A stretch of 64,000 nucleotides of DNA from Polytrichum commune (Eukaryota; Streptophyta; Polytrichopsida; Polytrichales; Polytrichaceae), in the NCBI GenBank assembly GCA_950295325.1, contig OX485807.1, positions 37,974,440 to 38,038,439 of the forward strand, given 5' to 3'. Both the position numbers and the translations under genes were made by a program. Positions 11,829 through 64,000 of the stretch are shown in pieces; the stretch's first letter is position 1; every line of letters begins with the position of its first letter. A model generated the notes under the pieces. That model saw only the letters and a program-made list of their open reading frames with translations, had not been told where the DNA came from and made no database searches.

Positions 11829-11858
11829 AGGTCGGAGGTTTGACCCCTCCTTCTAGCG
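11829..11858 (+). pseudogene. 3' fragment of tRNA-Asn
   Basis: Only the variable region, T arm and 3' acceptor strand of tRNA-Asn are present, including GGTTTGACCCC with one change in the T loop, followed by TTCTAGCG. The 5' part is replaced by unrelated sequence. It marks the broken left end of the tandem array. Confidence 0.85.
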
Positions 11859-12162
11859 GTGCAAAATCCTTTTACAATTCCGTTTACTAATCGTCATATA
11901 CTTTTGCATCAATGAATAAAGTGGGGGGGGGGGGGGGAGGAGGGGACAATGCCTGGTATTGCACAAATTGCTCACAAACTTCATAGTCTTTTCCAAATAC
12001 CGTCCACGAGCTTATGAATTATTTATAGTGCCCAATTGGACTGGGGGGATGACCCACCACTCTTGCAGCTCATCACCCACTCTCCTCTTGTTGGTTATCT
12101 AGTCCGTTCACCACAACCCACCTAAATGATTCTTCAAGGTTTCCAATCACACAACGTCTTGA

Positions 12163-12234
12163 GCGTCCGTAGTCCAACGGTTAGGATAATTGCCTTCCAA
12201 GCAATAGACCCGGGTTCGACTCCCAGCGGACGCA
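12163..12234 (+). tRNA. tRNA-Gly-TCC: tRNA-Gly (anticodon UCC), copy 1
   Basis: A 72-nt cloverleaf with acceptor GCGTCCG/CGGACGC, anticodon loop CTTCCAA and T loop TTCGACT. One mismatch lies in the T stem (CCGGG against CCCAG). The upstream leader is rich in CAA, as is usual for plant tRNA genes. No run of four T follows before the tRNA-Asn 39 nt downstream. Probably functional or nearly so. Confidence 0.93.
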
Positions 12235-12273
12235 TGTGCGCACTTGAGAGGCGCCACGAGTTGCACTAGACAT

Positions 12274-12290
12274 GCTGGAATAGCTTAGTT

Positions 12291-12323
<33 letters not shown>

Positions 12324-12347
12324 GAGGTTCGACCCCTCCCTCTAGCG
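12274..12347 (+). tRNA. tRNA-Asn-GTT: tRNA-Asn (anticodon GUU), copy 1
   Basis: A 74-nt cloverleaf including the discriminator G. The anticodon loop is CTGTTAA and the T arm GGAGGTTCGACCCCTCC. The acceptor 3' strand is CTCTAGC, giving one mismatch against GCTGGAA. A TTTT run lies about 11 nt downstream (12358-12361), the first Pol III terminator after the Gly/Asn pair. Confidence 0.93.
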
Positions 12348-12654
12348 GTGTAAAACCCTTTTACAATTCCATTTATTGATCGTCATTTACTTTTCCATCA
12401 ATGAGTAAAGTGGGGGGTGGGGGCAGGGGGGGACAATGCCTGGTATTGCACAAATTGCTCACAAACTTGTCTTCATATTCTTTTCGAAATATCATCCACG
12501 AGCTTATGAATTATATATAGTGCCCAATTGGAGTGGGCGGATGACCCACCACTCATGTGGCTCATCACCCTCTCTCCTCTTGTTGGTTAGCTAGTCCATT
12601 CACCACAACCCACGTAAATGATTCTCCAAGGTTTCCAATCACACAACATCTTGA

Positions 12655-12726
12655 GCGTCCGTAGTCCAACGGTTAGGATAATTGCCTTCCAAGCAATAGA
12701 CCCGGATTCAACTCCCGGCAGACGCA
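12655..12726 (+). pseudogene. tRNA-Gly-TCC: tRNA-Gly (UCC), copy 2, damaged
   Basis: It has the same anticodon as copy 1. The T arm reads CCGGATTCAACTCCCGG, which breaks the conserved G53-C61 pair and changes the B box, and the acceptor 3' strand is CAGACGC, giving a C-A mismatch. These changes make it the least likely of the three Gly copies to give a stable tRNA. I call it a probable pseudogene. Confidence 0.75.
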
Positions 12727-12764
12727 TGTGCGCACTCGAGAGGGCCACGAGGTGCACTAGACAT

Positions 12765-12838
12765 GCTGGAATAGCTTAGTTGGTTAGAGCGTGTGGCTGT
12801 TAACCATAAGGTCGGAGGTTCGACCCCTCCTTCTAGCG
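12765..12838 (+). tRNA. tRNA-Asn-GTT: tRNA-Asn (anticodon GUU), copy 2
   Basis: A 74-nt cloverleaf with a fully paired acceptor (GCTGGAA/TTCTAGC), loop CTGTTAA and an intact B box GGTTCGACCCC. The anticodon stem has one G-U wobble (CCATA). A TTTT run follows within 15 nt. The upstream partner tRNA-Gly is damaged. Confidence 0.93.
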
Positions 12839-13147
12839 GCGCGGAACCTTTTTACAATTCTATTTACTAATTGTCATTTACTTTTGCATCAATGAATAAA
12901 GTGGGGGGGGGGGGGGTAGGAGGGGACAATGCCTAGGACTGCACGAATTGCTCACAAACTTTGTCTTCGTATTCTTTTCCAAATACGTCCACGAGCTTAT
13001 GAATTATATATAGTGCCCAATTGGAGTGGGCAGATGACCCGCCACACCTGTGGCTCATCACCCACTCTGCTCTTGTTGGTTAGCTAGTCCGTTCACCACA
13101 ACCCACCTAAATGATTCTCCAAGGTTTCCAAACACATAACATCTTGA

Positions 13148-13219
13148 GCGTCCGTAGTCCAACGGTTAGGATAATTGCCTTCCAAGCAATAGACCCGGGT
13201 TCGACTCCCGGCGGACGCA
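13148..13219 (+). tRNA. tRNA-Gly-TCC: tRNA-Gly (anticodon UCC), copy 3, canonical
   Basis: A 72-nt cloverleaf with all stems paired: acceptor GCGTCCG/CGGACGC, T arm CCGGG-TTCGACT-CCCGG, anticodon loop CTTCCAA. This is the undamaged consensus of the array and the best candidate for a working gene. tRNA-Asn follows after 39 nt with no T run between. Confidence 0.96.
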
Positions 13220-13258
13220 TGCGCGCTCTTGAGAGGCATCATGAGTTGCACTAGACAT

Positions 13259-13275
13259 GCTGGAATAGCTCAGTT

Positions 13276-13308
<33 letters not shown>

Positions 13309-13332
13309 GAGGTTCGACCCCTCCTTCTAGCG
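13259..13332 (+). tRNA. tRNA-Asn-GTT: tRNA-Asn (anticodon GUU), copy 3, canonical
   Basis: A 74-nt cloverleaf with the standard plant D arm AGCTCAGTTGGTTAGAGC, loop CTGTTAA, T arm GGAGGTTCGACCCCTCC and acceptor TTCTAGC plus G. TTTT at about 13342-13345 is the terminator. Confidence 0.97.
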
Positions 13333-14282
13333 GCGTTAAAACCTTTTACAATTCTATTTACTAATTGTCATTTACTTTTGCATCAATGAATAAAGTGTGG
13401 GGGGGGAGGGGGGTAGGAGGGGACAATGCTTGGGACTGCACGAATTGCTCACAAACTTTGTCTTCATATTCTTTTCCAAATACGTCCACGAGCTTATGAA
13501 TTATATATAGTGCCCAATTGGAGTTGGCGGATGACTCACCACTCGTGTGGCTCATCACCCACTCTCCTCTTGTTGGTTATCTAGTCACCTAAATAATTTT
13601 GAAGGGGGTGCCAATTTTGTATGCATAAAGTATTGCTTGCCAGAGGGCGCCCTTGCATGGAAGTTGGCTCGAATGAATGAGAAGTTGGCTCAGCAAGCTG
13701 CCTCTACACGAGTTCCACCAAAATAGTCGAGAAATGGGGTCCACACTGCAGACTCACAATTCGAAAACATTCAATAATCTGTAAGTCGAAATCAACTACT
13801 CATTTGTATCATTTTCTGATACAACTTGTAGTGCCGTAGTTGCACACCAGTTGCACACCAGTTGCACGACGACGTAGACTTCGCAATGCATGCCAGTTCA
13901 GTTACACCTTGCTCAGTCGAACCGATGCTTTGAAAATTAGAGGCTGTAGCGATTGCGAACCCAGCGATCCACTATAACGAACTCATCGATCCCAAAACAA
14001 CTCTGGGATCGAAATTGATCGATTTTGTGTCGATGGAGTTGCAGTCTGCAAAGTCTGAGCCACTACTACCACTACTACCACTACAACTACTACTCATTTG
14101 AGCAGATTTTGAGCAACGTAATTTTGTACCTCGATGTCCATCACCTCCTGAGTTGATTTTTGAGAGGCACCCGTTCTATGTATCACCTCCGGGTTCTTCT
14201 AGAGTACCTGAGAGATTGACAGCATACTGCAGAGATCCGTGTTGCTTGAGTCAGCTTCTCAGGCTGCCAACGTATCGATTTG

Positions 14283-25403: not shown

Positions 25404-25636
25404 TATGTTTGCAATGTAAGGCCTTCTTCTGCTTCACGTTTCTTTGGGCGTAATATAGTCCATCGCCCTCGTTGGATATTAGTTTTGTATATAAATCGCA
25501 TTGGCCATTTCTTCCGCCCAAAATGATTGATAGAGGATTTAAACATGAAGCATATTTCTCACCATCTCTAAGTAGATGCGATTTGCACGTTCTACCACCC
25601 TATTTTGATGGGGCCTATATAAGGTGGATGTTTGTT
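25404..25636 (-). pseudogene. Copia integrase core, part adjoining the insertion
   Basis: Reading leftward from the insertion point, the frame gives QNRVVERANR and LEMVRNML, matching the integrase signature QNGVVERKNRT..EMAR.ML. The frame continues from 38124-38200 across the inserted element. Confidence 0.85.
25625..25636. repeat. Target-site duplication, left copy
   Basis: TGGATGTTTGTT, repeated at 38123-38134. The next base differs (A here, T on the right). The first T could belong to the right-hand tail, so 11 bp are certain and 12 possible. Confidence 0.93.
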
Positions 25637-27619
25637 AACGAAGTCATAAGTTGAGATGAGTCATTCATAAAAGGGTATGAGGAAGCCGATGTATACGTAC
25701 TACGGCCGGAGGAGTAGGACAGCGTCGTAATGCTTTGGATTCCATGATCGGTGCCCTTTCAGAGGCCGGGAGGCTGCAGGAGGTCAGGGGAGAGAGGTAA
25801 GGTTGAAGCATCGCTATGTGGTGCTCCTCGAAACTCTCCCCTCTCCACCCACCTCACCAAGCCCTGAAAGGCCGCTCAAACGGCCACCTCAACACCCTCG
25901 GAGAGATATATAAACAGGAGGACCAACACCACAACATCACTTTGGGAATGCACACTTCGAGAGCTAGCCAGGAAGCGACATCTTGATCAGATTTTGAGTA
26001 GAAGCGGCTCACAGCGACACTTGAGCCGATCTTGAAGCGGAGTGACTCTCAGTGACATCAGGAGCGAGAGATACTACCGGATAGGAAGAGAGCATAGATT
26101 CTAAGACGGAGAGGACATTGGAATGAGAGATCTAGCGCAATACCTGTGAGATCAGATAGCTAAGCAGCAGAGAGCCTGCAGATCTAGAAACAGCAACTGA
26201 AAGCAAGGACAGAAGTTAGATAGCAAGAGAGTTTATAGTGAGACACATCTGCAGATCCCCGAAAAACTACACCTGCACCGAAACTGCGGCGACCCCAACA
26301 ACTCGACATTGAGTTCCGGAACCTGCACCGAACGGAGGCCCACTACAGATCAAGGTTGCGGCGATCTCAACAAAACACCTGGAGTCCACTCACGCCGGCA
26401 TCTGGAGGACTGCAGAGCCGATCTTCGCTCAGAAACCAAGCTCACAGAATCCAATGTAAGCTGCCAAGGACACCCACCTGACGACTTCTACAAAGCGGCG
26501 ACACTAACCGGAGATTCAAACCAGCACCCCCTGCGGTGCGGTGACAACTGAGATCCCTGTGCTACAGCACTCTAGGACTTGATTACCACATTCAAGAAGC
26601 AAGACAACTAGGGAGCACGAGCGACCCCCCCGAAGATCCCCCCGAAGATCGTCATCAGACTGTGAAGAAGATTGCAGTCATACAAGAGCCGAAGCCGAAG
26701 AGACCCGAAGAGACCCCATAGCCGTTTTCTACCAACGACCGAGGATCATTCGCCGCACTTCCAGATCAAATAGTATACTCTTGAACTTTCTTTCCAAACC
26801 CTGCTGCAATCCCACACCAAAGACGTGAGAGTTCGGGGCCTTTGTCCCTTGCTGCACGGAGAGAAACAAGTCCAGGAACGAGAAAAGACGACTGAGGTAG
26901 AGCAAGGTGTAGAGCTGCTCGCCACCGAACTCTGCTGCCGAAAGAAGAAGGTGGTTGGAGTGAGAAACTACTGGTCGAAAGCATACTGGGAATTAAGCAG
27001 CAAGAATACACATTGTTACTGGAGCAAGAAACTGCTTGGAATTCAAGAGGAGCCGTTGGAGAGGAGCTGCTGGAGGGCCATTCCGTCGAAGGTTGCTGTC
27101 CCGGCCGAGGAGCGGACAACGACTCTACTGCGAACAGAGAGTAGGAGCGGAGCAGCTGTGTAGAGCTGAACCGCCACGAAAGGAGGGAGTTCGAATCTGA
27201 GACCTGCAGCTGAGAGGTGACGGAGCTGTGGAGTTGGGAGGCTAGTTGCTTCCAACCAGACAGAGGAGGCTGCGGAAGGAGGGAGTTCGAGGTGCTGCGA
27301 AGGAGAGGAGCAACTCCAACAAAATACTGCCCGAGCTAAACCAGGTATCACTCAAAACCCCCACTTAGATAGACACTTAGACACATAGAGAACACACACA
27401 CAAACGAAACAAATTAAAATCACAGTAGATACACACACACACACATTAGTTAACTAGGCACTTAGCTTCCTTTTTGCTCCCTAAAAGTAGAAGTAGTTTT
27501 GCTGCCCTTCATCCGCTTGGTAAGTTTACACGTTAATTTGTTTTCTCATTTGCACATAGGCACACACATAGTCTTAGACACATCATAGCATTGATAGGTT
27601 TGTTAGGATAGTAAGCAAA
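25637..27619 (+). promoter_or_regulatory. 5' leader of the non-LTR element
   Basis: About 2 kb, clearly richer in G+C than the surroundings and full of CCGAAG, GCGGCGA and GGAG motifs, including a small tandem CCCCCCGAAGAT pair at about 26625-26650. Open frames inside (for example 26825-27163) overlap on both strands and look like by-products of composition. A GTAAGT donor-like site occurs at 27520. Likely promoter and untranslated leader. Confidence 0.7.
25907..25914 (+). promoter_or_regulatory. TATA box in the leader
   Basis: TATATAAA in the context GGAGAGATATATAAACAGG, a strong match to the plant TATA consensus, with an inferred start site near 25938-25945. It lies 270 bp inside the element, which is unusual because a downstream start would lose the first 300 bp on retrotransposition. 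Confidence 0.55.
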
Positions 27620-28378
27620 ATGAAGGTTGCATATGCAACCTACCTTGTTATCATTATGTGGCTAGTACTAGCCACACCATACTGGATATACTCTCATAGT
27701 GACAACTCTCACACCACATGGGAATGCCTTACAAACTCTTGCTTTAAAAACACATATAAGAACGTCATAAATCCAAAGGTATGGTATAACAACCTTAATG
27801 TTCATATCATAAATGAATGTTCCATTAGAAATAATGGATCCATGGTAGTAACGGTAGATGCTTGTGCTTTTAGTTATACTTGCCTCAAATGCTTAGGAGA
27901 TGTATGGAATGTTAGAGCTGTGACAAATCATAATCTGCATAAGAGCACTTACAACCAATTTGTAAAAACTAATATGAAGATTCATATGAATAAGAAAAGG
28001 TGTTATCATAGGATGAATGCAAGTTATACTCATACTAGTACTCATTTGATGTTAGAACATGCAAATTACTTCTTCTTTCACTCTCAATTCCTAGGAGGCC
28101 CACAACTTAATTTGTGGAAAAGAATTAGAGGAAAGAAAATAAGAAGTATACCTCATTCAAAACTAAAGTACGAAACGTTTGTTTGCTTTGCTTATATCAG
28201 AATGGCAACCATCACTCCAACCTCATCATCCCTTAAGTTGTTTGAAAATAAAAACATAGATTCTACAAGTGGAAAACGTCCAGTGCTTGCTGTGGTATTG
28301 TCAAGTCAAAAAAATGTTAAAGGAATAGCACCCACTGAGAGAACACGCCCCCCTATTGGTTTGGTTTTCAAGCTATGA
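27620..28378 (+). CDS. ORF0: small protein with hydrophobic N-terminus
   Basis: 252 codons. Residues 1-25 form a signal-peptide or membrane-anchor stretch (MKVAYATYLVIIMWLVLATP). The next 120 residues carry spaced cysteines (WECLTNSC, ACAFSYTCLKCLGD, KKRC) and many Asn/His, which suggests an exported or lumenal domain. The last 60 residues, from MATITPTSSS, are basic and Pro/Thr-rich, more like the start of an ORF1 protein. The TGA overlaps the ATG of ORF1 (ATGA at 28375-28378), an arrangement used elsewhere for termination-reinitiation. I recognise no family. It may be an element gene, or an acquired fragment fused ahead of ORF1. Confidence 0.6.
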   Translation: MKVAYATYLVIIMWLVLATPYWIYSHSDNSHTTWECLTNSCFKNTYKNVINPKVWYNNLNVHIINECSIRNNGSMVVTVDACAFSYTCLKCLGDVWNVRAVTNHNLHKSTYNQFVKTNMKIHMNKKRCYHRMNASYTHTSTHLMLEHANYFFFHSQFLGGPQLNLWKRIRGKKIRSIPHSKLKYETFVCFAYIRMATITPTSSSLKLFENKNIDSTSGKRPVLAVVLSSQKNVKGIAPTERTRPPIGLVFKL

Positions 28379-29454
28379 ACACAATTGCAAAATTTGCCAA
28401 CATGCCTCTCATTCAAACACCTTCTTTCACTGAGTTAGTCAAAAAAGGTATGTGTGAGTCTGAAGCACATGAAATGGTGGAGTCATCTCCCTCCTTTCCG
28501 TTCGTTGCCCAAGAAGAGTGGCCTTCTATACGAACGGATGGTAAGGAGGGAATGCACTATAATCTCATACAGATTTCTTCAGATGTGGAAGTGGGTGATC
28601 ATGGATTTGCTTTGGACTATCACATATCTATCCATTTTGAAATTGAAAGAATAGAATTGGATAGAGATGTGATACTCAACTTAACAAAGGATAGACTAAA
28701 AACAATGAGGATAGAGGTCGGGGAAGTCCTAGGGGAGCCCATAGCTATCCTTTGTTTTCATGGGACCAAAAGATGGAGTGGAATTATTAAACTCCACCTT
28801 AAAAACCCTGAAATGGATGGATATGGCCTTCTCTGTGGATTGAGACCTTTCATCCTCAAGCTTGGCCAATTTACACATGCTATAGGCAAAGTGTGTAAAT
28901 CCTTTTATACCATTGCAATTGCATCCATGCTCTCCGTCAAAGTCACAACCCCATCAATCAAGGGTAAAGAATGGTATGATTTGTTTGTAGAAATAGTTGG
29001 GGATGGATTTCGACGAGGCCTTGACTTTGAAATAACGAATGTGCAAAAATCAGCAGATGCAGAGTTTGCTTGGATTAAAGCACCCTCTCCAGAGGAAGCC
29101 AAAAGAATTAAAACACTCAAACTTTCGTTTTTCAATGAAATAGTAGATGTAAACTTTGCAAGTAACGAAAAACTCTCAGAAGATGATAAAGCCCGAAAAA
29201 ATGCACTCATCCTAATTGCCCGTAACCTCAATAAGGTAAAAACAACCATGCAAATCGAAAAAGAAATCCGAAAATGCATGGGAGAACTAAATGTTCTCGG
29301 TTTTTACTTTAGACTTGAGAACGGGAAGCATACGGGCTCATGCAATGTCCAATGCCTCAACTCGTTTGTCTACAAGAAATTTGTTAAGAAAAATGAAAAA
29401 AATTTGGTAAATATGTTGAATTTACCCCCCATCCAAAAAGTCTTGACGGGATAA
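28375..29454 (+). CDS. ORF1 protein, RRM-like RNA-binding region
   Basis: 359 codons. The N-terminal two thirds are unfamiliar. About residues 275-345 look like an RRM: KARKNALILIARNL (beta 1), EIRKCMGE (helix), VLGFYFRL (beta 2), GSCNVQCLNSFVYKKF (beta 3 and helix). ORF1 proteins of non-LTR elements bind their own RNA, so the role is inferred as RNP formation. The frame closes at 29452-29454, but the -1 frame stays open across 29421-29819 and continues with sensible sequence. A run of six C (29425-29430) lies just before the stop. Base composition is normal for the region, unlike ORF2. Confidence 0.75.
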   Translation: MNTIAKFANMPLIQTPSFTELVKKGMCESEAHEMVESSPSFPFVAQEEWPSIRTDGKEGMHYNLIQISSDVEVGDHGFALDYHISIHFEIERIELDRDVILNLTKDRLKTMRIEVGEVLGEPIAILCFHGTKRWSGIIKLHLKNPEMDGYGLLCGLRPFILKLGQFTHAIGKVCKSFYTIAIASMLSVKVTTPSIKGKEWYDLFVEIVGDGFRRGLDFEITNVQKSADAEFAWIKAPSPEEAKRIKTLKLSFFNEIVDVNFASNEKLSEDDKARKNALILIARNLNKVKTTMQIEKEIRKCMGELNVLGFYFRLENGKHTGSCNVQCLNSFVYKKFVKKNEKNLVNMLNLPPIQKVLTG

Positions 29455-29819
29455 ATGCACCTAGTAAAGAAGAGCTAGTTAGACTTGGATTTTCAGACGT
29501 GAACACCGCACTTGCAAACACCATCCAAGCTCTGGAGAATGGACCGCACCAAAACATCACCAACAAAGATCTCAACAAGATGGTAGAAGCAGCGGTAAAA
29601 AATGGGACGGATGAAATACGAAAAGAAATGGTGAACCTTAAAGGTGAGATTGTGCAAGAGACAAAGGTTTATGCCGACCATGTGCAAGCGGAGTCAAACA
29701 AGAATTCCAAGCTCCAAATACAACTCCTTCAAAGGCAAATGAAGATTACCTTGGATGCTATCGAAGCGGCTCATCCGGACATATCGGAAATTGAAAACAA
29801 TATGGACTTGACAAACTAA
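29421..29819 (+). CDS. C-terminal coiled-coil part of ORF1, in the -1 frame
   Basis: Read in the -1 frame from the C6 run, the sequence gives KSLDGINAPSKEELVRLGF, then a charged helix-rich stretch (KMVEAAVKNGTDEIRKEMVN, LKGEIVQETKVY, LQIQLLQRQMKITLDAIEAA) ending in TAA at 29819. The first in-frame ATG is 29499, but the open frame begins earlier. It likely forms a coiled coil for trimerisation, as in many ORF1 proteins. It is joined to the preceding frame either by -1 frameshifting or by correcting a one-base indel. Confidence 0.65.
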   Translation, partial: FTPHPKSLDGINAPSKEELVRLGFSDVNTALANTIQALENGPHQNITNKDLNKMVEAAVKNGTDEIRKEMVNLKGEIVQETKVYADHVQAESNKNSKLQIQLLQRQMKITLDAIEAAHPDISEIENNMDLTN

Positions 29820-30052
29820 TTTCGACAAACATCCCGGCGGCGTACAATTATAAATTACTTATAGTATATTTATATACTAAAAACAAAAACATAATTAAAT
29901 TATTAATATATACTAAAAATAAAACCCTACCAAATAAAATAGTATATAACATCAAAAATTCACAAAGAAAACCCCCCCAACACCTCACAAAAACAAATCT
30001 ATTTACTCACAATACAACAATATCCTATCCAATACAACAAAGTACACAATAC

Positions 30053-30378
30053 GGCCTCAGCCTACCGGCCTCGCCACAAAATAAAACTAACAAGGTATAT
30101 ACACTACCACTCCCTCAACCCCATCATTAACACAATCACAAAGCCTACCCACCAACATACTAAACCTATACACTACCTCCCAAAAACTACACAAAAAACA
30201 ATAATTGCCTTACCTAATCTATTTACAAAAAGTAAATATAAACTACTCACCTTAAATAAACCTCACCTCAACATCAAACACCATCACAAATCCTATTTCA
30301 AACACCTATTAAACCCTCATTCAAAATACCAACCTCACCCAAAAGATACAATGGCCTCGGCCTACCGGCCTCGCCACA
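30053..30378 (+). repeat. 26-nt motif repeated exactly 300 bp apart, in frame
   Basis: The block 30053-30078 recurs at 30353-30378 with a single A/G difference. The core is CCTACCGGCCTCGCCACA. Both copies encode ASAYRPRH in the ORF2 frame, and the difference is synonymous (TCA/TCG). The second is preceded by ATG (30351) and the first by ACG (30051). The frame is open from 29943 to 31508. Confidence 0.85.
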
Positions 30379-31511
30379 CAAATAATAACACATACCACTT
30401 CATAAATAACTGGAGACCTAACTCAATAACAAGCCAAAAATCTATAAAAAATACAAACTCACACTTCTCACCCAAACAAATAGAAAACATCATACCCGCT
30501 ATACCTAACCTCTTTACTACAACCAAGTTCATAATTATAATTTATCTAAAAACAAACATGAAAAATCCAAAAACACTCCATTCCCACGAATACTACTTTA
30601 TTAACAAACTAGAATTGCTAAAATGCGGGGACATAGAACCCAATCCCGGACCAATGCCTAACATCCTACATACACACCCTGCTACACACCAAAAAAGAGC
30701 CAATATCTACTTCATTCCAAACACTATAAAACTACAACCTGAATACCAACACATAGCAAACACATTTGCCCCCATACTAAAAAACACATACCCACTACAC
30801 CCTCAAGCAATAACCACCTACCCACATCTACATCAATATATCCAAACACAAAGGCAATCACCACTAACCCATATGCTATACGCTCTAATTATCACCATCC
30901 ACCCCTCAATAGACACATGCAATAACATACTAACCCAATCCCAAAATTACCACTTTAATAACATATGGACGAACACATTAATTATCAGACTGGCCAACCT
31001 CACCAACCCCCCCGAAAGGCATATATCAACACCTCACCCATACACAACTTTTGTAGAAAACAATCAAGATATAATATACCCAAAAAACTCAATACACACA
31101 GAGATATATGAATTTATCCACAACCAAGATACTACACCAATACCAATCACCCTTCAAAATAATTTTCCCTTCCTCCCAAATCAATTGATCACCGAAGCAC
31201 TCCGATGCCTAGAAAGCATCAACGAATATTCACACCCACCCCCACCCCCAGCTACTCCCACACCAACCCCAAGAATTAACACCGACACCGAGCACGAAAT
31301 AAATATAATAACATGGAATGCGTCATCACTGAACATATCATTACCAAACCTACAAAGCCTAATAAACAACTCGCTAAACAACACAGCAATTATACATATC
31401 CAAGAAACCAAACTAATTGCAAATAAATCTACAAAATACATACAAAACTTATTTCCGGAATTTAAACTCATTTTCAACAACACACATGCACTCATAAGAT
31501 GCATACAATAA
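30351..31511 (+). CDS. ORF2 part 1: 2A motif and start of APE endonuclease
   Basis: 386 codons to an in-frame TAA (31509-31511), with the same frame continuing at once (next ATG 31515). Residues 89-101 are LLKCGDIEPNPGP, a full match to the 2A consensus D-[VI]-E-x-N-P-G-P, at which ribosomes skip the last Gly-Pro bond. The APE-type endonuclease begins at about residue 317: IITWNAS with Asn323 and IHIQETK with catalytic Glu352. APE nicks target DNA to prime reverse transcription. A hydrophobic FIIIIYL stretch lies at residues 60-66, ahead of 2A. The frame is also open 136 codons upstream of this ATG. Confidence 0.85.
   Translation: MASAYRPRHTNNNTYHFINNWRPNSITSQKSIKNTNSHFSPKQIENIIPAIPNLFTTTKFIIIIYLKTNMKNPKTLHSHEYYFINKLELLKCGDIEPNPGPMPNILHTHPATHQKRANIYFIPNTIKLQPEYQHIANTFAPILKNTYPLHPQAITTYPHLHQYIQTQRQSPLTHMLYALIITIHPSIDTCNNILTQSQNYHFNNIWTNTLIIRLANLTNPPERHISTPHPYTTFVENNQDIIYPKNSIHTEIYEFIHNQDTTPIPITLQNNFPFLPNQLITEALRCLESINEYSHPPPPPATPTPTPRINTDTEHEINIITWNASSLNISLPNLQSLINNSLNNTAIIHIQETKLIANKSTKYIQNLFPEFKLIFNNTHALIRCIQ
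30615..30653 (+). other. 2A ribosome-skipping motif in ORF2
   Basis: It encodes LLKCGDIEPNPGP. The Gly codon GGA is 30648-30650 and the following Pro codon CCA 30651-30653. If active, it would release a roughly 100-residue N-terminal peptide and start the endonuclease-RT polyprotein with Pro. Confidence 0.85.
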
Positions 31512-31514
31512 AGA

Positions 31515-32396
31515 ATGCCTTATACCCCCGGAAGAGGAGGCTTACTCACACTTATCCACAAGAAATATGCATTCCCTGGGAATATCACCAAAATTCCCAC
31601 GCCAGTAAATATATCCCCATACCTACAAATAATTAAAATAAACAACCATCTACTAATACCTTGGCTAATCATACACATGTACATGCCTACACACTTAGAA
31701 GACACATGCCTCATTCCACACCTTAAGAACGAAATCACTAACGAAATCACTATACACCCCAATCACATGTATACATTATGTGGGGACTTTAACCGAGATA
31801 TCGCACTTAGAGGCAGACAAAATAACAACATTAACACCCCTCCACAAGAAGAAGATTACCAATGGAAAATTTTCACCGCATCACTCAACCTAGAATATAT
31901 CCCAACTAACACTAGCATCTCCAGACAAGGAGGCTATAATTACACATCAACAAGTCTAATAGATGGATTCTACATTCACTCACTAGACAACAGCAAATTC
32001 ATTTCTACCACAAACACAAACATGAATCTAAACTCAGACCATTATCCAGTTGTACTATATATCCCCCACAACACCCTTATAGCCAGATCCCCACCCCCCA
32101 CAAACACGTCACCAACTAGAATACTAAACCCAATATCACCAGAAAACATCAAAAAATTCAACATAACATTCTTCGAAGAAAACTTTGCACTAATAAAAGC
32201 CCTTACAACCCTACTCGAAAACCACCAATACTTAAGCCCGGATCAATGGGCGGAAGCTTGTACAACATTCGACCACATTGTATACAAAATTTCAGAAACA
32301 ATTGAAGAAACCTGTAAAGCAGACCCACTATCCAACCTTACGAACAGAACATCACAACAAGGTGGGCTTTTGCCACGCAAACTTGCGAGAAAATGA
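31515..32396 (+). CDS. ORF2 part 2: remainder of APE endonuclease
   Basis: In frame with the previous part. It carries CGDFNRDI (Asp91, Asn93 of this piece) and LNSDHYPVV (Asp175-His176), the conserved APE motifs after the QETK block, and SLIDGFYI between them. With Asn323 and Glu352 upstream, the active-site set is complete apart from the intervening TAA. It ends at TGA 32394-32396 (context ARK-stop-KRH). The frame then stays open to 33125, so this stop looks like a Trp codon changed to TGA. Confidence 0.85.
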   Translation: MPYTPGRGGLLTLIHKKYAFPGNITKIPTPVNISPYLQIIKINNHLLIPWLIIHMYMPTHLEDTCLIPHLKNEITNEITIHPNHMYTLCGDFNRDIALRGRQNNNINTPPQEEDYQWKIFTASLNLEYIPTNTSISRQGGYNYTSTSLIDGFYIHSLDNSKFISTTNTNMNLNSDHYPVVLYIPHNTLIARSPPPTNTSPTRILNPISPENIKKFNITFFEENFALIKALTTLLENHQYLSPDQWAEACTTFDHIVYKISETIEETCKADPLSNLTNRTSQQGGLLPRKLARK

Positions 32397-33790
32397 AAAA
32401 GACACCTCAACACATATCACCTCATCAGGAAAACCATATACATTGCACAACACGATCCATTCTGGCAAGCACACCCCATCCTAAACGATATACGAAACCA
32501 CCAACACACAAACATCCCACACCCACCTGTTATAACGGCACCTCCTACTGAATGGATTGATGCCATAGCAACCATCGCAAAAAATGCAAATAAAGAAGCC
32601 AAGAAAATTACCACAAAATACACCAAAGACTGCATTCTAAAGGCCGTATCAAAATACTGTCAAATATATGAAAAAAGCCCCAAAAAGATAAATCGAAAAG
32701 TCTTCAAGAACACTGAAACCTCACCCCTGGACTCCATCATTGATAGACAAAACAATATATTAACTAACCTAGAAGACATCGCAGCAGAAATATACACGCA
32801 ACAATCCATCAGTAACCGTCCTACAGTTCCCACATGCCAATATCAAAATACACATCCACTACACTGCACATGTAGAGTCCGGCAATATCCATGGCATGAC
32901 TTAGACAGACACATCATTGACAAACGAGGAGAACCCCAAATCCCCCTACACACGTATTTTGACCAAGAAATATACGACTTTTGTCTTAAAAACCTAAGTA
33001 ATAACAAAGCCCCAGGCCCAGACAAAATACCCAATTCAATTCTAAAAAACATGCCTCCACGCTTCCATAAATTACTCTTCTTATTTTTCAAACATTGTTA
33101 TAAACAAAAACAAATCCCTGCATCATAAAAACCAGTCTAACAGTTTTACTATACAAAAAAGGTTACCCATCACAACTAACAAATCATAGACCTATTGCAC
33201 TAGCTAACACCATATATAAATTCTACACGAGTACATTAACTTCATCCTATCAGCGTATGGAGAAAAATACCAAATATTACACGATAGTCAAGATGGGTTT
33301 AGAGCAGAGAGAAGCACTTCTAGACAAATCCAATTATTAATCGCAGCGCTTGAAGACGCAAGACTCACGAACCAAGATATATATATCCTTTACATTGACT
33401 TCAAAAACGCCTTCGGCTCCATTGATCACGCCAGACTTTTAGCCATAATGAAAGATCTGGAATATCTCACTGATTCCATAAATCTCATAGAAAATATATA
33501 TTCACAATCCTCAACAATATTCACTGGTGAACACTTCGGTAAAACCTTACCAATCCCTATTCAAAGAGGTACAATACAGGGTGATACCCTTAGCCCATAT
33601 CTATTTATCATATTCATAGAACCCCTCCTCAGATGGCTACAACAAGGGAATAATGAATACACTTTTGGTACATCTAAAATTAAAAATCTCATCAGCAGCA
33701 TATGCAGATAACCTAGCAGCAATCGCCAATAAACTAGAAACACTAGAAACACAACTCAACAAACTAGACAAATTCTGTGAATGAGCAAGA
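32397..33790 (+). pseudogene. ORF2 part 3: reverse transcriptase, broken
   Basis: In frame 32397-33125 it reads through HCTCRVRQYPWHDLD and NNKAPGPDKIPNSILK (RT motif 0/1). It meets TAA at 33126 and then gives NHRPIALANTIYK (motif 2a region). A one-base shift near 33235 leads to QDGFRAERS, the motif A Asp in YIDFKNAFGSIDH (33397-33399), and GTIQGDTLSPYLF (motif B). A second shift near 33695 leads to motif C, AYADNLAA (33698-33721), where the usual second Asp is Asn. A TGA at 33782 follows (FCE-stop-ARMDL). Family identity is unmistakable. Activity of this copy is unlikely. Confidence 0.9.
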
Positions 33791-34750
33791 ATGGATCTTG
33801 GAATACCCAAATGCGCAATAACTGGATGCCCAAACAAATCCAAACTTCACCCCACAACCTTTAAAGCCCTAATCCAATCTACCAATATCAACTACAAAAA
33901 CCAACCTATACCAGTCTTAAACCAACATGAACCATACACGTATCTAGGAATAAATCTTGCATCATCACTCAAATGGAAAACACAAATAAATACCACTATA
34001 GCTAAAGTAATAAAACAGTGTCAAGCCCTTGTAACATGCCCAGCTATTATGAAACAAAAAATAAACATGGCAGATACAGTCATACGTGCTGGAATAGCAT
34101 ACAGCTTCTACGTAGTGTCATACTCCATACCAGTTATCAAAAAACTTGATAAAAAAATCATAGCACTTCACAAAACGATATGCGGAATACCCAAATGCAC
34201 ATCTAACATCGCTACACAACTCCCACACAATCTATTTGGAATCGAAGCATTCTCACTACAAAATGCCTATTTAAGATGCATTGGAGAACAACTACAAAAC
34301 GCCCTTAATGATAAAGGTAGAATTGGGAAAATATATGTTGGTCTACTTCAATTCATACTCGCCAAATATGGAGGCTCTAAGGAAATCACCCGCATTAAAT
34401 ACCACCACTGTGTTAGATCACCCATCACTAGAACATTATTCTTGCTCAAACATAAAGCCGGAGTCCACCTAAAAAGTACAATAAACAATTTCCTACTAAC
34501 CCCATCCCTACTTGAAACTGCATGGATGCAGGAAGCACAAATGCTTCATGGCCTAAATTCCAACACCTCACTTAAATTACTACACAAACTACTTGTACAT
34601 AATATAATCACACTAGACCAAATTACCATGCCTAATGGTACCACTCTAATGAACCCGGACGAATTCAATATCTACCACTCCACTTCTTCTAAACTTATCA
34701 AAAGCGCACTTAACATAGCTAATCAATTATTTTTGCCACCCCCCTTGTAA
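33791..34750 (+). pseudogene. ORF2 part 4: RT thumb and linker
   Basis: 319 codons continuing the YADN frame: KCAITG, YTYLGINLASSLKWKTQI (typical RT end motif Y-LG), then IRAGIAYSFYVVSYS and KLDKKIIALHKTICGIPK, the thumb/linker block of non-LTR elements. It ends at TAA 34748-34750 only because of a shift at a run of six C (34739-34744). The next frame continues PCNQCPLSCQQHH, a Cys/His cluster. Confidence 0.85.
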
Positions 34751-34904
34751 TCAATGCCCCCTATCATGCCAACAACACCATCCACCAAGATCCCTAAAAA
34801 ATAAATATATAATAAGACACCACAATATCCTACCACACCCACCAACCGCCCCCGTACACTCCCCTAACCTCCCCATCCCCCCTCTACCCCCTCCTCCCAA
34901 CAAC

Positions 34905-37676
34905 ATGCTTAAAGACCCCCGACAATTCCTCATACACAAAATAATCGATCATAAACAAAAACAATCCAATGACCATAACGGAATAAAAAGAACAGTCACG
35001 TCGTACTTATGTCAATGGACTACAACAAATAACAACACATATAACAAATGGCGAACTCAAAGGGACCTATACCCCTACTGTGAAGCCAACACATGTAATC
35101 ACAACACAGACCTACTTATCCACTACTACAAAGAAAGACAACACAAACATTTTTCAAACATAATTAATGCCTACTTCTCCACAGAACAATATAGAGACAC
35201 AAGATACGTCACACCAACCACAATAATTCCACTAGCACATATCTCTATTAATGAATGCAACCCAGAAAACGACATCGAAACAAACTCTGATACCATCCAA
35301 ACACAATTCGATGTCGCTCACATATACGAAGACAATGGCCGACACCTCATTACCATCCCGAAAGCTAGACTAACATGGCAATGGAGACAATACCAATTGG
35401 CAAAAAACAACACACACGGTTTAGAACCATCTACCCAATCGTTCGAAACTGAAATTGTTTGGTTATACCAAAGGTACAAATACCGTATCCCAAAAAATGA
35501 CCCACTCAAACGAGCCCAATATACAATACCAACCCAAATATTAGATCTCCTGATTACAACATTCAATATTAACCACTCATATTTTTCATCCCCAGTTACA
35601 TGCCCCACACAATTCACCCAATTCTACTCACCATTCTCGCAAGACATAATATTTGGATCCCTAGGTAAAGCGTTTGACCATAAATGGCAAGGAATCGGTT
35701 ACGCACACCCTCATAATACAACAGACCTACAACAAGTCATTCACTGGGCGCGCATAGCGGCCCAAAATGATCCATATACAATCACTATACTTATATCTCC
35801 GGATACTAATTGGTACCAAAACTCCAACCCACACACAGGCCCATTCCCAGACACACACGTCATTGCCCATTTCGCCGCTAATACGATCACGTATGAGGAA
35901 CCCACAATACCCTCCGAGCTCAATATCACAAGAAAAGAACCATCTACCATGCAAATATTTTGTATCCATCACCAAAACAATAACATAGGCACCTACGAAC
36001 AAATGAAATTAATAAGCGACACAGCAAATAACCTCCAAATACTACAAAGTCACACACAAACTGCACCACCCACCCCTCCAAACATCACCGTTAACCCTAG
36101 TAAAAAATGGGCTAAATCAAACTACCCAAACACACCCCTACACAATAATATCCCCACCCCACAACTTCCAAACTACCAAACTAACTTACTGCTAAAATTC
36201 CACCCCCAATTTAGCTACTACACAGACGGATCCTTTATAAAACCCAAAGAAATTGCCCCTGGGGTATGGAGAAGAGAAAGAGCTGGATACGGTATCTATA
36301 GCCCCAAAGGCTTAAATATCGCCAAAAGACTCCATGGGCATCAAAATATACTACGTGCAGAAATGATGGCTATACACAAAACACTAAGAATCATCAATAC
36401 AAAATTCCTTAATGAACCCGCATTCATATTCACAGACAATCTAAACGTATTATACCTACTCAACACACAAATTAAACACCCCATTCTCCATAATAGTCAC
36501 CCCGACCAAACCACACTAAACTCCATGGTAAAAATCCTCCAAGACCGTACACAGCCAATCACACTATACAAAGTCAGAGCACACGTCAACATTGACGGTA
36601 ATGAAAAAGCGGATAAACTAGCAAAAAACAGGTTAGAATTAGAACACAGAATTGCCATCCACCCATACGAACATGCCCACGCCATCCCGTACTATTACCA
36701 AAAGGACGTCTGGGCCTCGATGGCAGACGTCCCAGACAAAGGCCCAGTAAGATTCTTAGAAAAACAAATTAAAAAATATGATAGGGAAACCAATATAGCA
36801 ATCATGGCCACACAAACCCCCAACACGTGTAAATGGACAGAAAATATAGACATTGACAAAGAACTGTCCAACGAATTCTGGACAAATCCCTTAATCACAG
36901 ACAAACAAAAATCCTGCCTTATTAAATTCCGCACAGGAACATACATGGGTAATGCTAGAAAACAAATGTTCTTCGGTCACCAGAGGTACCCCTCTATCAC
37001 ATGTCCTATATGCAATTCAAACGATCCAGACACTTGGCTACACGTTCTACTAAAATGCAACCAACAACATATACACTCACTACGAATTAAAAGACATAAC
37101 AAAGCAGTCGGAGAAATTAGGAAGCTTCTAATCTCGTCCGAAAAATCCCGATGTTTTACTCTCATGAATGCCGGTACCTTCAATAATAACCCCCAAGAAA
37201 ATACAGTCCCCAATTGGCTACTCCCCTGCACATGTAACACACAAAGATGTCATTGCAACGCAAGATTTCGACCTGATATACTCTGCGTTAAAGGATTACC
37301 ATATCAAAATGACCCTCCCATTAACATTGACCCTAACCTCACCATACAATTTATTGAATTCACATATTGTAACGACAGATTTTCCCCAGAAACAATAGAA
37401 GCAAAAAACAACAAATACAAACCTTTGATTGATAGTATCGCTTCCAGAGGATGGAAAATCGAACCACTTATTGTCATCACAACTGGGGCCCGAGCTACGG
37501 CCCACATCCCATCTATAAAAATACTAGAAGAAAATCTCAAAATACCCCTGGTTACCATCAAAAATACCTTTAAAAACATTAATACCATTGCAATACAATA
37601 TGCCATGTCCATCCTCCTCCATAAGAGGAGAATTGAAAACCACCAACCGCTCCCCCAAAACTTAGACCCTCCATAA
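34905..37676 (+). CDS. ORF2 part 5: MTase-like region, RNase H, CCHC knuckle, restriction-like endonuclease
   Basis: 923 codons from this ATG. The frame is open from about 34740. Residues 233-340 are an unnamed region (FGSLGKAFDHKWQGIGYAHP, ILISPDTNWY) faintly like phage-type adenine methyltransferases. RNase H follows, with Asp441 (YTDGS), Glu486 (RAEMMA), Asp511 (FTDNLN), His560 and Asp570 (GNEKAD), all catalytic residues present. A knuckle, Cys700-x2-Cys703-x9-His713-x4-Cys718, precedes the second endonuclease: RFRPDIL (Asp791), IQFIEFTY (Glu818), EAKNNKYKPL (Lys834/837), then SRGWKIEPLIVITTGA. This is the PD-(D/E)xK order of restriction-like endonucleases in R2-type elements. TAA at 37674. 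Confidence 0.9.
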   Translation: MLKDPRQFLIHKIIDHKQKQSNDHNGIKRTVTSYLCQWTTTNNNTYNKWRTQRDLYPYCEANTCNHNTDLLIHYYKERQHKHFSNIINAYFSTEQYRDTRYVTPTTIIPLAHISINECNPENDIETNSDTIQTQFDVAHIYEDNGRHLITIPKARLTWQWRQYQLAKNNTHGLEPSTQSFETEIVWLYQRYKYRIPKNDPLKRAQYTIPTQILDLLITTFNINHSYFSSPVTCPTQFTQFYSPFSQDIIFGSLGKAFDHKWQGIGYAHPHNTTDLQQVIHWARIAAQNDPYTITILISPDTNWYQNSNPHTGPFPDTHVIAHFAANTITYEEPTIPSELNITRKEPSTMQIFCIHHQNNNIGTYEQMKLISDTANNLQILQSHTQTAPPTPPNITVNPSKKWAKSNYPNTPLHNNIPTPQLPNYQTNLLLKFHPQFSYYTDGSFIKPKEIAPGVWRRERAGYGIYSPKGLNIAKRLHGHQNILRAEMMAIHKTLRIINTKFLNEPAFIFTDNLNVLYLLNTQIKHPILHNSHPDQTTLNSMVKILQDRTQPITLYKVRAHVNIDGNEKADKLAKNRLELEHRIAIHPYEHAHAIPYYYQKDVWASMADVPDKGPVRFLEKQIKKYDRETNIAIMATQTPNTCKWTENIDIDKELSNEFWTNPLITDKQKSCLIKFRTGTYMGNARKQMFFGHQRYPSITCPICNSNDPDTWLHVLLKCNQQHIHSLRIKRHNKAVGEIRKLLISSEKSRCFTLMNAGTFNNNPQENTVPNWLLPCTCNTQRCHCNARFRPDILCVKGLPYQNDPPINIDPNLTIQFIEFTYCNDRFSPETIEAKNNKYKPLIDSIASRGWKIEPLIVITTGARATAHIPSIKILEENLKIPLVTIKNTFKNINTIAIQYAMSILLHKRRIENHQPLPQNLDPP

Positions 37677-38110
37677 AACCCAAAAAACTTATACAATATT
37701 TAGTATCTATTTACAGCTCAGAATGAGGGATTGGTGCCGGTTGGTTGGTACAAATTTCCTGCCTTTTACTCACTTGCAACACCAAGTCACGCGTTACATT
37801 TTAGACAATCATACGGACTTGACTGAAATCGAACCCGGAACGTCTTAACTCAAACATCCTCCCACAACCAACCGAGGAATCATGACTTGGCGTCCACTCT
37901 CATAACAAAAACACTAATTATACCTAAAAGGCATGCACCGCCGTGGGCCATGATCGGCCCACGTTATTTGTTTCTCGGTTACTATAGTGTCCATCCTCGA
38001 AAGAGGAGAGTAGTTTTGTCCCAGCTTCCCCATGTCCTGTGGGCATCGGGTTGTTGGCATTACGAACGGACACTCTATTCACGCTGGCCCCTAAAAGGGA
38101 CCGGAGTTTC
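37677..38110 (+). other. 3' UTR of the non-LTR element, with hairpins
   Basis: No open frame. Predicted stems: CGGTTGGTTG (37738-37747) with CAACCAACCG (37865-37874); CGTGGGCC-ATGATC-GGCCCACG (37942-37963); TCCTC-GAAA-GAGGA (37994-38007), which has a GNRA-type loop; CCCT-AAA-AGGG (38089-38099), close to the tail. Hairpins at 3' ends are what the RT of many non-LTR elements recognises. Function here is inferred. Confidence 0.65.
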
Positions 38111-38134
38111 TATCTATCTATCTGGATGTTTGTT
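38108..38134 (+). repeat. TATC tail and right target-site duplication
   Basis: TTCTATCTATCTATCT (38108-38123) ends the element as a short 4-bp microsatellite tail rather than poly-A. It is followed by GGATGTTTGTT (38124-38134), identical to 25626-25636. Confidence 0.93.
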
Positions 38135-55394: not shown

Positions 55395-57135
55395 AGAGGC
55401 ATGCTAAGATGACAAATGGGGGACACAAACCATCAAAAGATGATACCTAAGCCGATGGAAACCCCACAAGGCACCACACAACAATGGCACAAGGAAGCAG
55501 AACTCCTAAAATTCATGATACATTCTACCATACAACATCCTACTAGACCAGAACCTACTGCTCCTAACACAACACCACATGAAAACCCACACACAAAAAT
55601 CCTCCAAACATACAAAAATTGCCTCACCCACACACCCAATCCAAGACATGAGATATCTACGCCCACCCCTACAAATAACCAACCTCGAGCTATCCACCCA
55701 TGAATGCAACCTAGAAAAGACATCCTCATAAACAAACAAACAAACAAACCAACCAAACAAATGAAGGGCGTAGAATCCTTGCATAAACAATTAGAATTAT
55801 GGGAATTACATGGCCACCATCACTACCAAAAGGATGCACTGGTTATGGAACATATTCTCCCAGACAACCTCCCATAACTAGTCAGAGAAAGAAGTGGCCA
55901 CAAAGGCCATTGCAAAAGAATGAGATCCGGGTACCATTTACATTCCAAACATGTAGGGTCTACTAGTTCCCTATCTGTAGGTTGTGATTGGTTATCTATT
56001 GTATTTGAAGGACCAGCTCCTCACCATATCAATGGATGTGTCCCTTATATTATGCATTTTGATTCCTTCGATAGATTCAATTTCTAGTCATTTACTAAAT
56101 CTTGCCTTCCAAATGTCATTATTTCTATTTTATTTTTAAAGAAAATGGTTTAATATCTGCCTCAATTTCTTATTTTAATGACATGTATTTGTGTCAAATT
56201 GGTTAGTGCAATGCATCCAAGTTGCTTTATTTCATCTAAAATCATACATGTTCAATACATTTTTGTGTTTTCTTGTTCCATATTTCAAAGCCATGTCCTT
56301 AAATAGTCTCAATATCAGGGAAAAATCCCCAATTACCAAATATAATGTTACATGCCGACATCCACACAATAGTGACCATCCCACCACACACTATAAGCTA
56401 CAACCCGACACTGGAATGGCCAAAATGCTATCGATACATAGAACCATCCCTCACATCCATAATATGAATACACAAGCAATCAAACCCCACAAACACTCCG
56501 CCACATTATCAAGAAAATCCACAACATCCAAGATACCCACCCTATTAAACCCACCCCACAAACTACCACATCAAATTCTCCAACACAAGGAAAATTGCTC
56601 CCAAAGTAGTCATACCCCTCGAAACTACCCCCATGATATCAATACCAACCGAATACCACCATATCAACCCTCTCAAAATCCACTCACAACAATGCACAAA
56701 CATAGACGGATTCTTCATTTCCCCCACCAAAATTTTTGAAGGCCAGATAGAAGGCAACACTACAAGATCAACAGTATATGGCCCCAACAACAACACCCAA
56801 ATAGTAGAAGACTACCAGGCTACCAATACATCCTACGAGAAGAGTTTAATGCCATACTCATTGCCATAAAACCCATACAAACCACCCAACTGGACACACA
56901 TATATTCACAAATAACCTCAATGGTATATTTCTCATAAATAATCACATTTGACACCCGACTTTGCAACAATTGTACACCAAATATATTGGCCCCCACACT
57001 ACATACACAAAGTAAGAGCCCACACTGGCATCACCGGAAATGACATAGCAAACACGCTAGCAAACAAGGGAATGCACAAAGACAAACCCACCAACACACC
57101 CACATACACATTGCCCAACTACCACACATGATGGA
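55395..57135 (+). mobile_element. Decayed relative of the dual-endonuclease element
   Basis: Two A/C-rich, G-poor blocks (55395-55800 and 56335-57135) separated by ordinary sequence. The second holds RNase H pieces in shifting frames: IDGFFISPTKIFEG, REEFNAILIAIKPIQTTQL, HIFTNNLNGIFLINNHI and HKVRAHTGITGNDIANTLAN. They parallel YTDGSF, RAEMMAIHKTLRI, FTDNLNVLYLLN and KVRAHVNIDGNEKADKLA of the full element. Same group, different and older copy. No endonuclease or RT was recognised. Confidence 0.7.
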
Positions 57136-62477: not shown

Positions 62478-63022
62478 TTGCTATTGACTGATGTCTTAGC
62501 TTACAACTCGCACGTCTTTCGCCACAATTTGATTAGGTCGAAGGCGGAGTCGAAGATGCATAGGCACACAGTCTACAACCATGATGACTGGGTGAAACAC
62601 CGTTCGTGCTGGCGGCACCGCCGCCACCTCACGACGATCATGTCATCAGGCGTGATCGTGGGCCTTGGACCGCCAGTGTTGTTCTTCACATTTGTCGCAA
62701 CATTGGTGGCCGTGTTCAACCAGTCCGTGTCCTCTGGGCACCTCCCCGACTGGGTGCCCCTCCTCCGCGTTGAGCCGCTCCCATTTACGCTCACGGCGCC
62801 TGTGCTCGCGCTCCTCCTCGTCTTTCGCACAAACTCCTCCTACACCCGGTTCGATGAGGGGCGCAAGGCATGGGGCTCAATCGTAAACCGGACACGTGAC
62901 ATAGCACGACAAGCATTGACATGGATCCACCACCCAGAAGACGCGCATCGGCTACAATGCTTGCTACGTCATGTGAAAGCATTTTGCTTTTGCCTCAAGA
63001 ACCAATTGACGGCTACCCCAAG
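62478..63022 (+). CDS. Bestrophin-like chloride channel, one exon
   Basis: Open frame of 182 codons, read to CCCCAAG followed by GTAACA, a plausible donor at 63023. The first domain residues are HRHTVYNHDDWVKHRS (from 28), then TM segments at about 55-82 and 100-117, then FRTNSSYTRFDEGRKAWGSI and NRTRDIARQALTW, the conserved block of the bestrophin/UPF0187 family. Plant members such as VCCN1 are thylakoid voltage-dependent anion channels that tune proton motive force. Family members are roughly twice this length, so later exons lie outside the window or are missing. The start is unclear: Met at 62556 or an upstream exon supplying a transit peptide. G+C is far higher than the flanks. Confidence 0.8.
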
Positions 63023-64000
63023 GTAACAATGAGGCCTTTGTAAATAAGAGATTTATTATGTCTTATGTTCTTTATGTTGTGGCATGTTTACGTATGTTTG
63101 TGACGATGTCTATTTGGTGAGAAAGAGGACATTGAGACCTTCCAAAATATGATGTAAGTTGAACATTCAAAATGGTAGTCCAAATTTAGTTAGGACTCAT
63201 AATAACCTCGCATAATAAGGGGTTTTATCATGCAGGTGTTCGTGTACAAGAAGGCTTGAAATTTATATCAGAGACATGTTATAAATTTTATTTTAAGCAT
63301 AATTAATTGATGATTAGAATAGAACCTTAATATGGGGATGAGGTCACATACATCATCATACATGTACAAGTGATAAAATACATATAGACTTTGATTTGGA
63401 GGGGCTTATAATAAAGGCATAGTAAGCTACTGTTCTCCCTCTTTAGTATGACACCTTTGGGAAACACAAAAAAGTTGTATTATCGAGGTGTCGTCTTCTC
63501 ATTAAATATGACAAATGGCGTAAAGTTGTCGTATTATTGAGGGAATACGAAAACATAAGTAATATGAGCTTTAAATATATATACAACGAGTTTAAGCAAT
63601 ACAGATGGTATGAAATAACAACTTATAACTCCAAACAAATACAAATATTCTCAAGAACTCTTGAAACAGGAGTCCAAAGATCTCTAGTGTTGCCTACCCA
63701 AGTTAGCAACTCTCATCTTATCTAAATTCTCTACTAACTTCTGAAATCTAATAATCTCATGAACACCAACACATAAAGAGTTCTCTAACAAGAAACCAGA
63801 CAACAACGATGCATGACGTTTAGCAACATACTAGGCAGGAGGCCACTCTAACCCTGATTCTCATTAAGTTCCCGATGGTAAGTGAAGTTCCCAAGTTGTT
63901 CCCAAGTAAAAAATGGATGTATTTTAGATGTACATAACATAAATGAAAGGAATGTTAACATCAACTACCTCTTTAATATGATAGAACGGAGATTCTAAAT
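63023..64000. other. Intron or intergenic sequence, no gene recognised
   Basis: AT-rich sequence after the bestrophin-like exon. No continuation of the channel (the second TM pair and C-terminal helices) is visible in any frame. If the gene is intact, the intron exceeds 0.98 kb. Confidence 0.5.

Follow-up and report, generated by a model that had tools for sequence, protein, structure and literature searches.

A 64,000-nt stretch of Polytrichum commune contig OX485807.1 (the window, whose positions serve as coordinates throughout) holds, at 25637-38122 on the + strand, an element of 12,486 bp of the class without long terminal repeats (non-LTR). Very probably this is a full-length but decayed copy of a multi-copy retrotransposon, the second open reading frame (ORF2) of which combines an APE-type endonuclease, a reverse transcriptase (RT), a PCIF1-like domain, RNase H and a predicted R2-type restriction-like endonuclease (RLE), and which likely inserts by target-primed reverse transcription, each endonuclease probably cutting one strand. 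An earlier note, made from the sequence alone, had described a complete element with two different endonucleases at the two ends of ORF2; the PCIF1-like domain between RT and RNase H (PF12237, PCIF1_WW) had not been noticed. In what follows, L-numbers denote loci or copies and P-numbers collected public proteins. The genome searched comprises 408 Mb in 64 contigs (nearly all of it in seven contigs of 42-78 Mb), and thirty copies, window included, were taken as loci.

Two predicted endonucleases in one reading frame

The features of the element are as follows:

25625-25636, no strand: 5' target-site duplication TGGATGTTTGTT (second copy at 38123-38134)
25637-27619, +: 5' untranslated region; most of its sequence is not common to three other copies read through
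27620-29816, +: ORF1, broken here into ORFs 27620-28378 and 28375-29454, then a shifted tail
30351-37676, +: ORF2 region, with stops and frame changes in this copy
30624-30653, +: 2A-like peptide CGDIEPNPGP near the ORF2 N-terminus (translation)
31302-32070, +: APE-type endonuclease domain (motifs WNAS, QETK, GDFNRD and SDH; Pfam)
32976-33800, +: reverse transcriptase core (Pfam PF00078, PDB search, RT tree)
35289-35978, +: PCIF1-like domain (PF12237), with AHPHN at 35703-35717 where NPPF is expected
36213-36632, +: RNase H domain (PF00075, E 1.5e-11)
37002-37058, +: CCHC knuckle (translation; alignment A3)
37062-37520, +: R2-type RLE domain, predicted (motifs; predicted structure)
37677-38110, +: 3' untranslated region, matched over its full span in 29 of 30 loci with small size changes (L028 ends early)
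38111-38122, +: 3' tail, (TATC)3 (sequence)
38123-38134, no strand: 3' target-site duplication TGGATGTTTGTT, pairing with 25625-25636

The boundaries given in the earlier note stand: the same 12-bp direct repeat flanks the element on both sides and the TATC tail closes its 3' end. Completeness holds for the extent of the window copy, though not for its coding capacity. ORF1 and ORF2 are both broken, with four in-frame stops and four frame changes in ORF2 (read against P0031, P0037 and P0076), and the RT motif at 33701-33712 reads YADN where relatives have YADD; an intact element was accordingly rejected for this copy.

All motifs named for the N-terminal APE domain are in place (WNAS 31314-31325, GDFNRD 31782-31799, SDH 32034-32042, and QETK in the translation). 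In the sister family, represented by L062, the domain passes the PF14529 cut-off (29.9 against 27.4 bits, with PF03372 below its own cut-off there), and in P0075 both PF14529 and PF03372 are above cut-off (E 1.2e-9). RT (PF00078, E 5e-16) and RNase H lie between the two endonucleases, as had been proposed. At the C-terminus the RLE motifs were found at 37269-37277 (RPD), around 37356 (IEF) and at 37404-37418 (KNNKY); PD, the acid of IEF and KxxKY do not change across the 8 rows of alignment A3, and the region around and after the CCHC is predicted to fold as in R2 (linker, CCHC, RLE). Profile checks of the two endonuclease regions thus turned out positive for APE, through the sister family, and for RLE negative by sequence and positive by predicted fold. 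A protein search with the RLE region found, besides itself, P0001 and P0010 only, so that the RLE is not seen in algal-type relatives (a label given by RT-tree position); the local RLE profile matches 10 of 153 collected proteins, none numbered P0079 or above.

Since no single polypeptide can be read through the broken frame of the window, it might be argued that the two endonucleases belong to two elements, nested or fused during assembly. This is extremely unlikely. The L062 frame runs uninterrupted over 2,168 aa and holds both: it is above the Pfam cut-offs for PF14529 (5.3e-7), PF00078 (2.5e-26), PF12237 (1.5e-9) and PF00075 (8.3e-15), and after RNase H it continues with CCHC, KPD, IEFTYCNDRF and KxxKY. 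Identity to the window is 96-97% in three further copies (L013, L016 and L022, each read in three pieces), starting near 27.5 kb and running through the APE and RLE regions to the 3' end; one of them has an insert in ORF1. Finally, P0076 (2A, APE, RT start) and P0001 (RT end to RLE) both come from source contigs of 13,377 bp. The single L062 frame and the three further copies led us to reject two adjacent elements or an assembly fusion.

Genome-wide, dozens of close copies were recovered: at least 49 scored copies of the 923-aa C-terminal part (out of 7,110 first-look candidates), counting the window (100%), the others being 93-97% identical. Long uninterrupted ORF2 frames are among them, as in L013, L017 and L019, where ORF2 lies inside frames of 2,625 codons. 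For P0002 the genome search lists 39 matches, among them families with 71-94% identity to this protein.

Differences among copies point to constraint on the protein. We compared amino-acid-changing differences per site (pN) with silent ones (pS) in 28 of the 30 copies (L032 and L035 were excluded for length); the pairs share history and are not independent. Over 923 codons pN/pS is 0.32, and by segment it is lowest in CCHC+RLE (0.21, out of six segments), followed by the stretch before it (0.25), RNase H and the N-terminal 160 codons (both 0.29), the PCIF1-like domain (0.38) and a linker (0.50). Between L013 and L062, pN is 0.12-0.33 and pS 0.62-0.87 over nine segments, with 61% amino-acid identity in APE (pN 0.25, pS 0.69) and 67% in RLE (pN 0.21, pS 0.77). 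In every segment measured, amino-acid-changing differences per site are fewer than silent ones.

Place among known groups

An RT protein search with P0031 returned 336 proteins; among the 120 listed, the named sources are Gonium pectorale, Parachlorella kessleri and Haematococcus lacustris, together with a metagenome-assembled genome labelled Agrobacterium. Against PDB the RT scores vertebrate R2 highest (2.2e-30 to 3.7e-30), followed by R2Bm (3.8e-19), 8c8j (2.2e-18) and LINE-1 ORF2 (6.5e-18). In an RT tree of 37 rows built with IQ-TREE, nine rows of plant type group together (100/100) within a clade of 30 rows, also at 100/100, which includes P0098, P0100 and P0130 from the three named algae and no row labelled Dualen or RandI. 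R2 forms its own group (98/91) and four L1 rows are set off (100/99), both outside the 30-row clade; the tree is unrooted and has two long end branches, and the program cautions that joins near its base, the L1 join among them, involve long branches. The placement suggested in the earlier note thus came out beside green-algal RTs and outside L1 and R2, in a tree holding no labelled Dualen row. Pattern searches matched 37 times in IMG/VR and 55 times in GTDB genome contigs; tblastn confirmed none of these as a relative, and no phage record matched the element.

Membership of the R2 clade was rejected on the separate R2 group and the presence of APE. The predicted linker/CCHC/RLE fold is common to the element and R2 (9dou, 9nl2, 9nl3, 8gh6, 8ibw, 8iby, 8ibz), whereas the element differs by its N-terminal APE, RNase H, ORF1, dispersed sites and 12-bp duplications. 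An L1-clade element having APE only, with C-terminal motifs that are the usual L1 zinc-knuckle tail, would agree with the terminal CCHC that plant L1 elements generally have, and with the RNase H that they also carry according to the accessible part of PMC4640811. Nevertheless this explanation is very improbable: a 100/99 branch divides the RT from the L1 rows, an R2-like fold is predicted for the CCHC surroundings and the sequence behind them, and the tail is (TATC)n, not poly(A). L1 membership was rejected on the RT branch. Compared with L1-type RTs of the same host (L063, L065 and L066, taken as L1 by grouping), an RT with dispersed insertion and target duplications, as is generally known for L1, is common to both, and RT clade, RLE and repeat tail differ. 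A third host family (L064 and L067, frames of 2,131 and 2,372 codons) lies near P0056 and P0064 in the RT tree.

The likeness to Dualen/RandI drawn in the earlier note is supported. This group is reportedly due to Kojima and Fujiwara (2005). In the accessible parts of the sources, it is described in PMC4640811, Dualen is placed in Chlamydomonas and relatives (PMC8226300), LINE/Dualen labels appear in cryptophytes (PMC12747079), and eight of eight RandI families have non-A repeats at the 3' end (PMC3747384). Compared by description only, the element has in common with the group APE and CCHC+RLE in one element, RNase H, a green-algal-like RT and a short-repeat, non-poly(A) 3' tail; it differs in its plant-type host, PCIF1-like domain and 2A-like peptide. 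In the titles and abstract starts returned by our literature search, neither of the latter two is reported for Dualen. As to the host, contig C8 of the genome (146,561 bp) is a plant-type plastid contig bearing rps7 and ndhB: rps7 agrees with a chloroplast S7 chain (4v61) at 126 of 155 positions, and ndhB at 176 of 247 with a chloroplast NDH chain, which for its part agrees with a second such chain at 237 of 248. Plastid ndh genes being a mark of streptophytes, these values suit a non-flowering streptophyte. Additional domains also occur in collected proteins: the Haematococcus protein P0130 has a Josephin domain before APE, and a chromodomain (PF00385) is listed for P0105.

Target sites and integration

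Tails of (TATC)2-7 occur at 29 of the 30 loci, window included (the exception is L028). For the 20 best copies after the window we took 3 kb of 5' flank each and compared the 19 with a tail. Direct repeats of 11-14 bp join both ends in 14 of these (12 bp in eight); among mismatched end pairings, 2 of 342 reach 11 bp. The 14 bounded copies measure 11,532-14,252 bp, and their count is not a full-length fraction because the copies were chosen by score and with only 3 kb of 5' flank. Together with the window this gives 15 target sites. Their first target base is a T, except for a C at one site, and the base before it is G in 12 and A in three. The first nick therefore falls at purine|pyrimidine in all 15, and in 11 of them at G|T. 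No comparable base pattern is visible by eye at the far end of the duplication, nor any longer target sequence common to the sites.

Target-primed reverse transcription is the likely mode of insertion, since it fits the target duplication, the repeat tail and the domain set. One RNA would yield ORF1p and ORF2p, with the 2A-like peptide expected to release the enzyme from a short leader. The APE domain would then nick the bottom strand opposite G|T and leave a 3' A: as the first target base is almost always T, the primer strand would end in an A that can pair with a U in the UAUC repeats and so start reverse transcription; tails of 2-7 units would result from slippage. Held against the RT as in R2, the RLE would make the top-strand cut at a distance of about 12 bp, which would explain the narrow duplication size, and the RNA would be removed by RNase H. 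The role of the PCIF1-like domain may be to bind capped or 5' RNA, and not methyl transfer.

The first nick prefers a dinucleotide, no preference is seen for the second, and the spacing is narrow at about 12 bp; this is what would be expected if APE cuts first and an RT-fixed RLE second. We infer this order from the site pattern, and against all rivals together its chances are about even. One rival is a single working endonuclease: APE, as in L1-type elements, would be responsible for both nicks, and the RLE-like part would only bind DNA or support the RT. The loose first-nick preference is, by general knowledge, what APE-type enzymes lead one to expect, and the 15 sites without a longer common target sequence agree with it; still, CCHC+RLE has the lowest pN/pS of the six segments and its PD, IEF acid and KxxKY do not vary in alignment A3. 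We regard this rival as possible though somewhat unlikely.

Several observations weigh against the main explanation. Nothing in the data ties either nuclease to a strand, and both activities are predicted only. The APE piece of the window itself scores 21.3 bits against PF14529, below the cut-off of 27.4. For the RLE region, no sequence search connects it to R2, its structure model (built from 9 sequences) has a mean pLDDT of 56.6, and a model of the 923-aa C-terminal part (mean pLDDT 54.1) has no Foldseek match at E <= 0.001, R2Tg standing at 2.1e-3. With silent sites between the families saturated, dN/dS is not computable in 5 of 9 segments. At the target sites, the other five of the 19 copies have repeats of 0-8 bp only, the 15 sites were selected for having a duplication, and the repeat overlaps the tail by two bases at L017 and by one at L023.

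The PCIF1-like domain and the remaining sequence

PF12237 matches the window with 42.1 bits (E 8.7e-11; cut-off 31.1). It is also above cut-off in L062 (38.1), P0002 (35.3) and P0141 (48.4), and below it in P0123 (27.5) and P0010 (21.1). A local profile of the domain matches 39 of 153 collected proteins and reaches algal-type relatives (P0141 4.1e-19, P0117 2.6e-7, P0104 3.3e-4), for which reason it probably predates the plant-type group. Those rows of alignment A1 (34 public proteins) that span it read FSSPVTC...FGSxG...GYAHPHN with few changes. The assignment rests on sequence, as the 923-aa model gave no Foldseek match.

The catalytic motif of PCIF1 is NPPF. Among 31 proteins for which the motif was printed, none has NPPF: 25 have AHP, one AYP and two NPEY, one has neither, and the last two are truncated or out of register at this point. 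In a phmmer comparison with PCIF1 chain 6irv (E 0.46; 6irx 0.86), a PDB match weak when taken alone, AHPHN is aligned opposite ANPPF. The element thus has PF12237 and an alignable core (FxSPxxC...FGSxG) in common with the cap-specific adenosine methyltransferase PCIF1/CAPAM, but carries AHPHN for NPPF, inside a retrotransposon polyprotein. Methyltransferase activity has likely been lost, and because the catalytic motif is replaced while the domain stays constrained, we read it as a putative binding module. Alternatively, an active cap-adenosine methyltransferase could mark the element's own RNA, a view favoured by PF12237 scores that exceed the cut-off in P0141 (algal-type) as well as in the window and the sister family, and by the two algal-type relatives whose NPEY is nearer to NPPF. 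Given that none of the 31 has NPPF, that 25 have AHP and that GYAHPH is found alike in the window and the sister family, we consider this quite unlikely.

Our literature search, in which most subscription journals and Repbase were out of reach, found no pairing of a PCIF1 domain with non-LTR elements or retrotransposons in titles and abstract starts. DNA-methylase-encoding transposons are said to be absent from land plants in the accessible part of PMC6338049, which is not contradicted here, as the PCIF1-like domain is an RNA-methyltransferase relative without NPPF.

The long homology of the three read-through copies to the window begins only at 27274 or 27493; in the direction of the 5' end there are weaker matches of 65-219 bp, the longest being 25751-25968 (90%, one copy). 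Within one family, then, the 5' untranslated region (25637-27619; L059-L061) varies among copies whose remainder is 96-97% alike. ORF1 is a single 733-aa frame in copy L013/L059 (L059:3586-5784). It has no Pfam family above cut-off and nothing below E 0.14 in a PDB search; by eye its N-terminus is hydrophobic and signal-like with a Cys-containing part, which is odd for a LINE ORF1. The 2A consensus is D(V/I)ExNPGP, which the window peptide matches, making it 2A-like and ribosome skipping putative. GDIEPNPGP is also present in P0076 and L013, while P0075 has GDIQPNPGP (Q for E). Other 2A-bearing non-LTR elements likewise have D-I-E-x-N-P-G-P near an ORF start; here the peptide sits in a dual-endonuclease element. 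In L013 the ORF2 open frame has an ATG upstream of the position matching the window ATG at 30351. A 29-nt direct repeat (93%; 30053-30081 and 30353-30381, 300 bp apart) has one unit at the ORF2 ATG and the other upstream of it; both are read in the same frame, which makes the peptide SAYRP appear twice.

The element is inserted within a minus-strand copia-type element, recognized by a gag domain on the right (PF14223, E 3.8e-23) and on the left by an SH3 domain (PF25597, E 2.1e-14) with an RVT_2 match below cut-off. A decayed relic of a related element lies at 55411-56964, with 32% identity to P0123 over 150 columns and 33-45% to P0001, P0002 and the L062 frame over short stretches; the surrounding stretch has a similar A/C-rich strand bias. 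Elsewhere in the window, 11829-13586 is a tandem array (493-bp unit, 3.6 copies) of which three units each carry a tRNA-Gly(TCC) and tRNA-Asn(GTT) pair, and 62478-63023 is a bestrophin-like ORF (PF25539, E 7.1e-35).

The element bears on why two endonucleases would be kept in non-LTR integration, and on which of them cuts the second strand. With its many copies, long frames, first-nick preference and narrow duplications, the family makes both points testable domain by domain. According to the accessible part of a review on transposons in land plants (PMC9033089), the LINE superfamilies of plants are L1 and RTE, and a plant dual-endonuclease group would lengthen that list. The PCIF1-like domain, common to algal-type relatives and altered in its catalytic motif, would represent a cap-enzyme relative built into a retrotransposon. 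A more speculative reading, which we hold tentatively and think rather unlikely, is a dual-endonuclease lineage extending from green algae to plants that captured PCIF1 early, kept the fold and swapped NPPF (for NPEY in two algal-type relatives, for AHPHN in most of the plant-type group), so that APE would cut first and a reader of capped 5' ends would be coupled to the second cut by the RLE. If true, the element would verify that its template is full-length and capped before completing its integration.

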